Part shown: piece by piece, positions 14,673-39,115 of the stretch
How positions within the stretch are numbered: the stretch's first letter is position 1
Layout: each line of letters opens with the position of its first letter
Source: Scrofimicrobium sp. R131
Lineage (GTDB): Bacteria > Actinomycetota > Actinomycetes > Actinomycetales > Actinomycetaceae
Direction: 5' to 3'
Length of the DNA: 64,000 nt
Assembly (NCBI RefSeq): GCF_040256745.1
Contig: NZ_CP138335.1
Coordinates: 868,001-932,000, forward strand
Position numbers and translations under genes: made by a program
The notes under the pieces: generated by a model
Told to the model about the DNA's origin: nothing
The model's database searches: none
What the model saw: only the letters and a program-made list of their open reading frames with translations

Positions 14673-15101
14673 GTGGCAGTTCGTATTCGTTTGAAGCGCA
14701 TGGGCAAGATCCATGCACCCTTCTACCGCGTCGTTGTCGTCGATTCACGCAAGAAGCGTGATGGCCGCGTCATCGAAGAGGTGGGCATCTACAACCCGAT
14801 GCCCAACCCGTCCATCATTGAGATTGAGTCCGAGCGGGTGCAGCACTGGCTGAAGGTGGGCGCGCAGCCCTCCGACACCGTCCGTCGCCTGCTGGTTCTG
14901 TCCGGTGACATCGCCCGGTTCAACGGCAAGGAAGACGCCGTCAGCCGGATCCAGGTTGCCAACGTGGACCGCGAAGCCGAGGCCAAGGAAGCGGTGGAAG
15001 CCGTTCAGGCCAACGCGCAGAAGGCCAAGGCTAAGGCTGCGGAAGAGAAGGCAAAGCAGGAAGTTGCCGAAGAGCCCGCCGCTGAGGCAGAAGGCGAGTG
15101 A
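14673..15101 (+). CDS. rpsP: 30S ribosomal protein S16
   Basis: bS16 is recognised from [29 protein letters not shown] at the N-terminus. The protein is 142 residues, longer than the 80-90 of many bacteria, because of an alanine- and lysine-rich C-terminal extension (about 100-142) that is common in actinobacteria. GTG 14673 is preceded by TAGGAG. Its stop overlaps the GTG codon just ahead of the khpA start, and khpA, rimM and trmD follow, the classical S16 operon. Confidence 0.97.
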
Positions 15102-15411: not shown

Positions 15412-15924
15412 ATGACTCAGGAAAAACTGGTGGCTGGCATTGTGGGGGCACCCCGCGGGCTCCGAGGCGAGGTCAGCGTCATTTTGCGCACCGACCTGCC
15501 TGAGGAACGGTTCGAGCCGGGAACGACCCTGACCACAAACCGGCCCGAGTGGCCCGCCCTGACGGTTGAGTCGCTCGGCTACCACCGGGACCGGGCCTAC
15601 CTGACGTTCGCGGAGATCACCACCCGGGAGGAGGCGGAGGCGCTCAAGGGCGCTGAGCTGCTGGTTGATCCCGATCTGGAAGAGGAAGACGCCTGGTACG
15701 CCCACGAGCTGATCGGCCTTCGGGTGCTCGATTCTGAGGAACGCGAGCTGGGGGTGGTGACCGGGCTCCAGGTGGGACTGGCCCAGGACCTGCTCGAGGT
15801 GAAGGCGAACGGGCAGACCGTGCTGGTTCCCCTCGTGATTGAACTGGTGCCCGAGGTCGACCCGGCCGCCGGGATCGTGCGGGTCACCCCGCCGGACGGC
15901 CTGTTCCCGGGGAGCACCAACTAA
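15412..15924 (+). CDS. rimM: Ribosome maturation factor RimM
   Basis: RimM (170 residues) assists assembly of the 30S head around S19. The N-terminal domain starts KLVAGIVGAPRGLRGEV, the counterpart of the usual VGKIVxxHGLRGEV. The C-terminal PRC-barrel contains ELIGLRVLDSEERELGVVTGL. ATG 15412 is chosen because AAAAGGAAA precedes it; ATG 15397 would place that site inside the gene. Its stop overlaps the trmD start by one base. Confidence 0.95.
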   Translation: MTQEKLVAGIVGAPRGLRGEVSVILRTDLPEERFEPGTTLTTNRPEWPALTVESLGYHRDRAYLTFAEITTREEAEALKGAELLVDPDLEEEDAWYAHELIGLRVLDSEERELGVVTGLQVGLAQDLLEVKANGQTVLVPLVIELVPEVDPAAGIVRVTPPDGLFPGSTN

Positions 15925-17255
15925 TGCGGTTTGACCTGGTCACCATTTTCCCCGAGTACTTCCAGGTGCTGGACCTGTCGCTGCTGGGTCGGGCCCGGCA
16001 GCAGGGGTTGGTGCAGGTGGAGGTGTATCAGCTGCGCGACTGGGCAGAAGGCAAGCATCGCAGTGTCGACGACGCCCCGGCCGGTGGGGGCGCCGGAATG
16101 GTCATGCGGCCCGATGTCTGGGGGCGGGCCCTGGATCAGCTGTTGGCCGAGCCGGTGGCCGCGCCTGAAGCTGCGCCCGTGGCCGAGTCGGCAACCGGGC
16201 CGCGCCGGGTACTGGCCATTCCCAGCCCGGCCGGCGAACCCCTCACCCAGGCTCGCCTGGAAGACCTGACCGGTGCCGATCAGGTAATCGTGGCCTGCGG
16301 TCGCTACGAGGGTCCCGATGCTCGGATTGCGGAGCACTACCGCTCCATCGGGGTGGAGGTGCTGGAGTTTTCCCTCGGCGACTATGTCCTCAACGGGGGC
16401 GAGGTGGCCGCGCTGGCGCTGGTGGAGGGGGTGGGTCGACTCCTCGACGGTGTAGTGGGGAACCCGGACTCGCTGGTGGAGGAGTCGCACGCGGGGGCCG
16501 GGCTGCTCGAATACCCGGTCTACACTCAGCCGCGCCAGTGGCGTGGACTGGAGATTCCGCCGGTGCTGGCCAGCGGCAATCACGCCCAGATCGACCGCTG
16601 GCGCCGGGAACAGTCCCTGCGCCGCACTGCTGAACGGCGCCCCGAACTGCTCAGCCCGGAGGGGCTGTCCACCCCGGACCTCGAGGTGGTGGCCCGCGCC
16701 GGCTACCTGCTGGTGCCCCGGCGGGCCCGCGTCCACCTCCGCCCAGCCACCGGCGAGGACGTGCCGGCACTGGTCGCGCTGGCCCGGCGCACCTTCCCGG
16801 ACGCCTGCCCGCCCGAGGTGAGCGCCGAGGACATTGCGCACTTTATCGACGAGGAGTTCACGCCGGCGCGTTTCACTGCGCACCTGGCCAATCCGGACGC
16901 CTCCGTCTGGGTGGGGGAGGTCGAGGGCGAACTGGTGGCCTACACGCTCTGCTTCCGTCAGGCCCCCGCGGATTTGCGCGCGGCGCCCCCCGGAGCCGCC
17001 TACGTGTCCAAATGCTATGCGGACCCGAGCGTGCGCGGCTCTGGCCTGACCGGAGCCCTGCTGGACGAGGCGGTGGCCGACCTGCGCGCGCGGTGGGGAG
17101 TGGACTCGGTGGTGCTCGCCACCCACATTGGGAATCGGCGTGCCTCCAAGTTCTATCGGCGCCACGGCTTCAAGAAGCGGGGCCGGCGACACTTCCTGGT
17201 TGGCCAAACCGACAACATCGACGACGTCTTCGTGCTGGATCTCACGCGAGCCTAG
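15924..17255 (+). CDS. trmD: tRNA (guanine37-N1)-methyltransferase TrmD fused to a GNAT domain
   Basis: The 443-residue protein is a fusion. Residues 1 to about 262 are TrmD, which methylates G37 next to the anticodon and prevents frameshifting. Its motifs are TIFPEYF, CGRYEGPDARI, FSLGDYVLNGGE and the SGNHAQIDRWRR tail. From about 270 to 443 the frame continues into a GNAT acetyltransferase-like domain (VHLRPATGEDVPALV, then the acetyl-CoA loop VRGSGLTGALL, and ASKFYRRHGF). No stop or start signal separates them. TrmD alone is normally about 240-270 residues. The GNAT substrate is unknown. Confidence 0.93.
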   Translation: MRFDLVTIFPEYFQVLDLSLLGRARQQGLVQVEVYQLRDWAEGKHRSVDDAPAGGGAGMVMRPDVWGRALDQLLAEPVAAPEAAPVAESATGPRRVLAIPSPAGEPLTQARLEDLTGADQVIVACGRYEGPDARIAEHYRSIGVEVLEFSLGDYVLNGGEVAALALVEGVGRLLDGVVGNPDSLVEESHAGAGLLEYPVYTQPRQWRGLEIPPVLASGNHAQIDRWRREQSLRRTAERRPELLSPEGLSTPDLEVVARAGYLLVPRRARVHLRPATGEDVPALVALARRTFPDACPPEVSAEDIAHFIDEEFTPARFTAHLANPDASVWVGEVEGELVAYTLCFRQAPADLRAAPPGAAYVSKCYADPSVRGSGLTGALLDEAVADLRARWGVDSVVLATHIGNRRASKFYRRHGFKKRGRRHFLVGQTDNIDDVFVLDLTRA

Positions 17256-17269
17256 GGCGGAGCATGTGG

Positions 17270-17447
17270 CAAAATAGATCAGTGGACTGCCCGGCGTAAC
17301 CTGCCGCAGGGGGGCGCAAGATGGGCATCCGCACCAGGATAGCGAACCGTCCCTTTCGGGGCCGCTCGGTTGGAAATGGCCAGCTGAGTACGGTGAGTTC
17401 GCCAAACTGGCATGGCTGACCTGCGGCAGTTGTGCTTGGGAGTTGAC
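17270..17447 (+). promoter_or_regulatory. Promoter and structured leader of rplS
   Basis: CAAAAT at 17270-17275 is a plausible -10. The leader that follows contains CTGCCGCAGG at 17301-17310, which is perfectly complementary to CCTGCGGCAG at 17420-17429. These close a roughly 130-base domain that also contains an AACCG/CGGTT stem. The closing stem ends about ten bases before the GGGAG ribosome-binding site. Autoregulation by L19 is inferred from other bacteria in which rplS has such leaders. Confidence 0.55.
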
Positions 17448-17795
17448 ATGCAGAAACTTGATTCCGTTGATGCCGCTTCGCTTCGCGACGACATTCCTCC
17501 GTTCCGTCCCGGCGACACCGTCAAGGTGCACGTGAAGGTCGTGGAAGGTAACCGCTCGCGGATCCAGATTTTCCAGGGCGTCGTGCTGGCTCGTTCCGGC
17601 CAGGGCGTCTCTGAAACCTTCATCGTTCGTAAGGTTTCCTTCGGCGTTGGGGTGGAACGAACCTTCCCGGTTCACTCTCCGTCCATCGACCAGATTGAAG
17701 TGGTAACCCGCGGCGACGTGCGTCGGGCCAAGCTGTACTACCTGCGTAACCTGCACGGTAAGGCCGCCAAGATCAAGGAAAAGATCACGCGCTAA
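17448..17795 (+). CDS. rplS: 50S ribosomal protein L19
   Basis: bL19 lies at the 30S-50S interface. The 115-residue protein is typical: [22 protein letters not shown]…[30 protein letters not shown] and [19 protein letters not shown] 17448 is preceded by GGGAG; an in-frame ATG at 17412 has no family similarity ahead of this start. It follows trmD as usual but has its own leader. A terminator follows. Confidence 0.97.
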
Positions 17796-17808
17796 CTCAC
17801 ACGTAGAG

Positions 17809-17849
17809 ATGGGTCCTGAGCCGCCCGGCTTGGGACCCATTACTATTTT
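17809..17849 (+). terminator. Intrinsic terminator after rplS
   Basis: ATGGGTCC at 17809-17816 pairs with GGACCCAT ending at 17840, with an inner GAGCCG/CGGCTT stem. TACTATTTT follows, giving a U-rich tail. Confidence 0.8.
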
Positions 17850-39051: not shown

Positions 39052-39098
39052 CAAGCCGAGCGGGACTCGAACCCGCGACCTTACGATTATGAGTCGTA
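39052..39098 (-). pseudogene. 3' half of a tRNA-Met (CAT)
   Basis: On the minus strand the segment contains a perfect five-base-pair anticodon arm with anticodon CAT, a variable loop, a perfect T-arm (GCGGG/CCCGC around TTCGAGT) and the seven-base 3' acceptor strand TCGGCTT. The 5' acceptor strand and D-arm are absent. It starts three bases after the ino1 stop and is read opposite to it. It looks like a recombination remnant or attachment-site scar rather than a functional tRNA. Confidence 0.7.
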
Positions 39099-39115
39099 CG
39101 GCCTGGCTCGAACCG

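Follow-up and report, generated by a model that had tools for sequence, protein, structure and literature searches.

The trmD gene of Scrofimicrobium sp. R131 is best read as encoding a single polypeptide made of known parts, a tRNA m1G37 methyltransferase and a probable accessory small-molecule N-acetyltransferase of the GNAT superfamily. The two are genuinely joined, and the fusion is ancient and largely preserved across the Actinomycetaceae. TrmD is an essential tRNA methyltransferase and an antibiotic target, and across this family, whose members live with humans and animals and include Schaalia, Actinomyces, Winkia and Gleimia, it bears an additional, conserved enzyme domain. As to what the fusion is for, we infer enzymatic activity, a small-amine substrate and co-expression as the role of the join; that TrmD and a self-contained small-amine N-acetyltransferase are fused for co-expression is the best explanation as a whole, and we give it about an even chance of being right. 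No paper describing such a fusion was found in the literature searched, most subscription papers lying outside that search, so within it the conserved bifunctional combination is without a description.

The window, the whole stretch of 64,000 nucleotides that was analysed, comes from a 2.22-Mb genome of the Scrofimicrobium group of the Actinomycetaceae and contains the standard rpsP-khpA-rimM-trmD-rplS operon. The order is rpsP, khpA, rimM, trmD-GNAT and rplS, and then the signal peptidase gene (lepB). The features are as follows, in window coordinates:

14673–15101 (+), rpsP (S16), operon partner; PF00886
15098–15337 (+), khpA-type KH-domain RNA-binding protein; PF13083
15397–15924 (+), rimM; PF01782 and PF24986
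15924–17255 (+), trmD-GNAT fusion gene, 443 aa, its ATG overlapping the rimM stop codon
15924–16658 (+), TrmD domain, residues 1–245; NCBIfam NF000648 and structural model
16659–16724 (+), junction, residues 246–267, an ordinary TrmD C-terminal tail (L..D..LA..G) and a short linker
16725–17252 (+), GNAT domain of PaiA/LcGNAT fold, residues ~268–443; PF00583, hmmsearch and model
16794–16811 (+), FPDACP, residues 291–296, acceptor-side motif separating the clade from PaiA
17001–17018 (+), YVSKCY, residues 360–365, with Y365 equivalent to LcGNAT Tyr97 and residue 360 at the position of LcGNAT Glu92
17034–17051 (+), acetyl-CoA pyrophosphate loop RGSGLT, residues 371–376
17133–17156 (+), NRRASKFY, residues 404–411, with Y411 equivalent to the catalytic Tyr142 of PaiA/LcGNAT
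17412–17795 (+), rplS (L19); PF01245

The frame at 15924–17255 (+) is free of stops throughout, and the coordinates and the length of 443 residues given for it by the initial annotation are exact. Between rplS and lepB lies a strong terminator-like hairpin of 15 pairs (17808–17841, +), which probably marks where the rpsP-rplS operon ends. Elsewhere in the window, an Rfam tRNA match of 58 bases at 39052–39109 (−) is weak (30.2 bits against a cut-off of 29), was not called by ARAGORN and may be a chance match or a tRNA remnant.

Judged by the equivalog profiles, the N-terminal domain is an ordinary tRNA m1G37 methyltransferase TrmD. NCBIfam NF000648 gives 277.7 bits over residues 1–243 (cut-off 220), and TIGR00088 gives 218.3 bits for the TrmD part (cut-off 195). 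The domain is the full TrmD that it had been taken for; the RWRR tail is present at residues 225–228, and the GDYVLNGGE segment of the SAM knot is kept at residues 152–160. The fusion is the sole TrmD in the host genome. Residues 1–246 of the structural model align to solved actinobacterial TrmD with Z ~24. The stand-alone enzymes of Corynebacterium diphtheriae (7kff) and Mycobacterium abscessus (6qqr) have the methyltransferase domain, the fold and the invariant residues in common with the fusion but lack the C-terminal GNAT. The L..D..LA..G tail at the junction is also found in stand-alone TrmD of relatives in the order and in the fusions with a long junction.

The rest of the protein belongs, on its profile, fold, loop and catalytic tyrosine, to the GNAT superfamily. 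It matches PF00583 at residues 310–416 with 52.6 bits (cut-off 20.7), and a GNAT profile search with hmmsearch places 8osp first (2.7e-29), with 1tiq at 2e-27. An AlphaFold2 model made from a 78-sequence alignment has a pLDDT of 91.4; its residues 269–443 superpose on Bacillus subtilis PaiA (1tiq) with a Z of 23.3 over 171 residues at an rmsd of 2.1 Å, and the GNAT model on LcGNAT of Lactobacillus curiae (8osp) with a Z of 22.6. The CoA loop, R371-G-S-G374-L-T376, follows a slightly relaxed pattern, [R/H/Q]xxGx[A/S/T]; compared with the pattern R/QxxGxG/A, the window protein has Thr in place of the final Gly or Ala. Across 79 fused GNATs, F291 (79/79), Y365, N404 and A407 are invariant, Y411 and K363 are each present in 78, P296 in 77, C295 in 76 and the loop glycine G374 in 72. 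The GNAT domain with an acetyl-CoA loop reported after TrmD is upheld by PF00583, the fold and RGSGLT; it is complete and catalytically plausible, and the loop glycine is conserved in most fused relatives. The catalytic helix-4 tyrosine (Y411) is also found in all 48 stand-alone GNATs. Residue 360 (17001–17003) is Glu in 41 of the 79 fused proteins and Tyr in 38, the window protein included; most stand-alone copies have Glu there, but Tsukamurella has Tyr and Dietzia Gly.

The initial annotation had itself named a sequencing error or a random readthrough as what might undo the fusion, and its claim withstands both. Of 121 Actinomycetaceae genomes that are 95% complete or better, 110 have an orthologous GNAT, covering 29 of 33 genera and lying each time in a long open frame. 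TrmD and GNAT were confirmed in one frame for 78 distinct proteins, including the window protein and proteins of Ruania relatives; a few of the remaining matches hold one in-frame stop. In a first sample of relatives the fusion was present in four of five genomes of the same genus and in nearly all of the same family, the fifth same-genus genome (85% complete) giving zero matches. Outside the Actinomycetaceae it is present in two more families of the order, Ruania included, and in a Georgenia MAG. A 198-genome sample of the phylum yielded the orthologue in just 12 genomes beyond the host's own, and no TrmD lay near it in the 11 loci fetched from that sample. For close pairs, distant high-GC pairs having been left out because they looked saturated or biased, dN/dS is ~0.04–0.26 for the GNAT part, with one outlier of 0.50, and ~0.02–0.32 for TrmD. 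The GNAT part is under purifying selection. As the fusion recurs in dozens of independently sequenced genomes, an assembly artefact or sequencing error is excluded, and the conserved fusions together with dN/dS values well below 1 in close pairs exclude unselected readthrough; the probability left to either is negligible.

The closest known enzymes are LcGNAT and PaiA. LcGNAT, the nearest relative with a solved structure, acetylates free canavanine, and mutation of its Tyr142, Tyr97 or Glu92 impairs activity (PMC10416765). It is the best profile match to the fused domain, shares its fold over the whole domain, and its Tyr97 and Tyr142 correspond to Y365 and Y411; it differs in being a stand-alone protein, associated with a guanidine riboswitch and with Glu92, whereas the window protein is fused and has Tyr at that position. 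Since this Tyr replaces Glu at the putative general-base position, activity or chemistry may differ. A guanidine riboswitch link of the LcGNAT kind was rejected, no match above the gathering score being found either in the window or at any of 16 loci that carry stand-alone orthologues. PaiA, a spermidine/spermine acetyltransferase (PMC10416765), has the fold and the catalytic tyrosines in common with the fused GNAT but belongs to another clade and has other acceptor motifs. RimI, also of the GNAT superfamily, is a weak profile match only (30.6 bits against the TIGR01575 cut-off of 86.4). The host encodes a separate RimI elsewhere in its genome (118.5 bits), as do all 12 genomes checked, above the cut-off, which rules out the fused GNAT as a RimI replacement.

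The fused GNATs form one clade with a set of stand-alone actinobacterial GNATs, apart from the PaiA-like paralogues that co-occur in some Actinomycetaceae (support 100/100). The clade has FPxACP in place of the TFxET[FH] or similar sequence of PaiA-like proteins, and SKxY in place of their ERxY; four PaiA paralogues lack the P, C and P of FPxACP. The stand-alone members, from Mycobacterium, Dietzia, Nocardia, Tsukamurella, Aeromicrobium, Kocuria, Microbacterium and Cellulomonas, share SKxY, N404, R406, Y411, G427 and D433 with the fused ones, none of which was imposed by the search, whereas their agreement in FPxACP was imposed by the search motif. Alike in clade and conserved residues but unfused, they are likely to be true orthologues. 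No trmD lies beside them in the fetched flanks of up to 4 kb. The differences between fused and stand-alone copies, at residues 293, 371 and 422, are variable among fused proteins or are conservative swaps, and the comparison gave no clear fusion-specific pocket residue. Together with the position of the stand-alone copies away from trmD, this speaks against the fusion having created an activity directed at tRNA. The M. barrassiae orthologue (L078, 4010–5558) adjoins a gene for an AFG1/ZapE-type ATPase, with a similar neighbour at the Dietzia and Nocardia loci; we take the M. barrassiae locus to be the neighbourhood of M. tuberculosis Rv2669. The substrate of Rv2669 is listed as unknown (PMC10407107).

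In the explanation that we favour, the C-terminal domain would be an active acetyl-CoA-dependent N-acetyltransferase from an actinobacterial sister clade of the polyamine and amino-acid acetylases PaiA and LcGNAT. It would acetylate a small free amine, perhaps a metabolite or antimetabolite resembling an amino acid or a polyamine, and would work as a self-contained module whose reaction has no need of TrmD or tRNA. The domain would have been joined to TrmD in an ancestor of the Actinomycetaceae and allied families, tying its expression to the ribosome-biogenesis operon, and co-expression in this growth-linked operon would be the simplest account of the fusion. What favours a small free amine is the subclass, together with the invariance of the catalytic tyrosines and the existence of independent orthologues that stand alone. 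Among such amines spermidine has no special claim. PaiA is the best NCBIfam profile and is matched by all 20 members, and the fold and tyrosines match, as they should if the domain were a PaiA fused to TrmD that acetylates spermidine or spermine and so tunes the polyamines that support tRNA structure. The score against the PaiA equivalog NF053587 is, however, 33.7 bits, far below the curated cut-off of 250; the PaiA motifs TFxETF and ER[IV]Y are replaced; and in the tree the domain does not group with PaiA but stands apart, and some members of the family have PaiA-like paralogues as well. Being so well separated (100/100), the clade allows only a weak transfer of substrate by homology. No spermidine synthase (speE) was found at E 1e-10 in 34 genomes, the host included, and PotA exceeded its cut-off in only one of them, which weakens a polyamine substrate, although uptake may proceed by transporters other than PotA. 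We consider a spermidine/spermine acetyltransferase unlikely.

A second possibility is that TrmD brings a macromolecule of translation within reach of the GNAT, whose target would then be a base in tRNA, the amino group of an aminoacyl-tRNA, TrmD itself or a ribosomal protein of the operon. GNATs of the TacT/AtaT type acetylate the amino group of aminoacyl-tRNA, and the domain is fused to a tRNA-binding enzyme in a ribosome-biogenesis operon and kept so across most of the Actinomycetaceae. The initial annotation had proposed targets of this kind (a neighbouring tRNA base, TrmD, an operon ribosomal protein); they are not disproved, but the evidence lends them no support. The stand-alone orthologues, with the same conserved residues and pocket, sit away from trmD; the domain falls in the small-amine and amino-acid subclass, whose nearest solved relatives use free small amines (PMC10416765); RimI is encoded separately; and losses of the GNAT leave TrmD intact. 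Nor does the pI of the domain, with a median of 5.9 among the fused proteins and 8.0 in the window protein, give a family-wide sign of RNA binding; most fused GNATs are acidic to neutral, and the domain is not strongly basic. A macromolecular target is accordingly improbable in our view. Even so, the retention of the fusion in three families might reflect a functional tie to tRNA methylation. In a related version, the substrate of the GNAT would be linked to translation, being aminoacyl-tRNA, a nucleoside of tRNA, or else an amino acid or antimetabolite that is about to be charged, and the enzyme would couple acetyl-CoA status or detoxification to m1G37 methylation in the Actinomycetaceae. The chance of this is small; were it so, the stand-alone mycobacterial orthologues would be unrecognised enzymes of the same pathway.

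The GNAT could instead serve TrmD mainly in a structural or regulatory way, through stability or dimer geometry, with catalysis secondary or lost. What is known of loss and decay of the domain bears on this. Eleven of the 121 Actinomycetaceae genomes are without a recognisable GNAT: in two of them TrmD has its usual length (278 and 292 aa), and nine have an extension after TrmD in which the catalytic motifs are eroded and the catalytic tyrosines mostly lost. These extensions (L128, L171–L173, L175–L178 and L180), of ~140–240 aa and from several lineages, look like decayed GNATs and are possibly pseudoenzymes. Comparison with hhalign revealed GNAT ancestry in two of three extension groups (E 3.7e-7 and 2.3e-7), and none by this profile comparison in the third. 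The persistence of such degenerate or unrecognisable domains fits a structural role, as does the change of the general-base Glu to Tyr in half of the fused proteins, but the near-invariance of the catalytic tyrosines and the CoA-loop glycine in intact members does not, and G018 and G271 have lost the GNAT outright while TrmD is normal. We therefore hold a mainly structural domain to be a doubtful reading. Lineages have given up the GNAT domain several times, often where the genome is small, and its repeated loss or decay with TrmD intact implies that TrmD does not need it. The self-contained acetyltransferase remains the preferred reading. The fusion predicts co-expression, and perhaps a functional link, of tRNA m1G37 methylation with this acetyltransferase clade, and the natural losses, the decayed copies and the stand-alone orthologues provide ready comparisons for a substrate search.

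The history of the fusion may be read in two ways, both possible: either the two domains fused twice, or they fused once and fissions, losses and a deletion in the tail came later. Two types of junction exist, most fusions keeping the normal TrmD tail and the Ruania-type ones joining the GNAT directly after RRPDL. The TrmD tree has well-supported branches that make the 'fused' label change seven or more times, and within its fused clade nests one family of the order that has TrmD alone. In the GNAT tree, a single clade of fused copies set against the stand-alone ones is rejected (p-AU 0.013, for a group chosen after viewing a tree), with weak support and poor resolution. Two fusions near-identical to that of Schaalia odontolytica occur in genomes titled Xylanimonas cellulosilytica 352_XCEL (L062) and Sanguibacter keddieii 250_SKED (L063), which are probably mislabelled.
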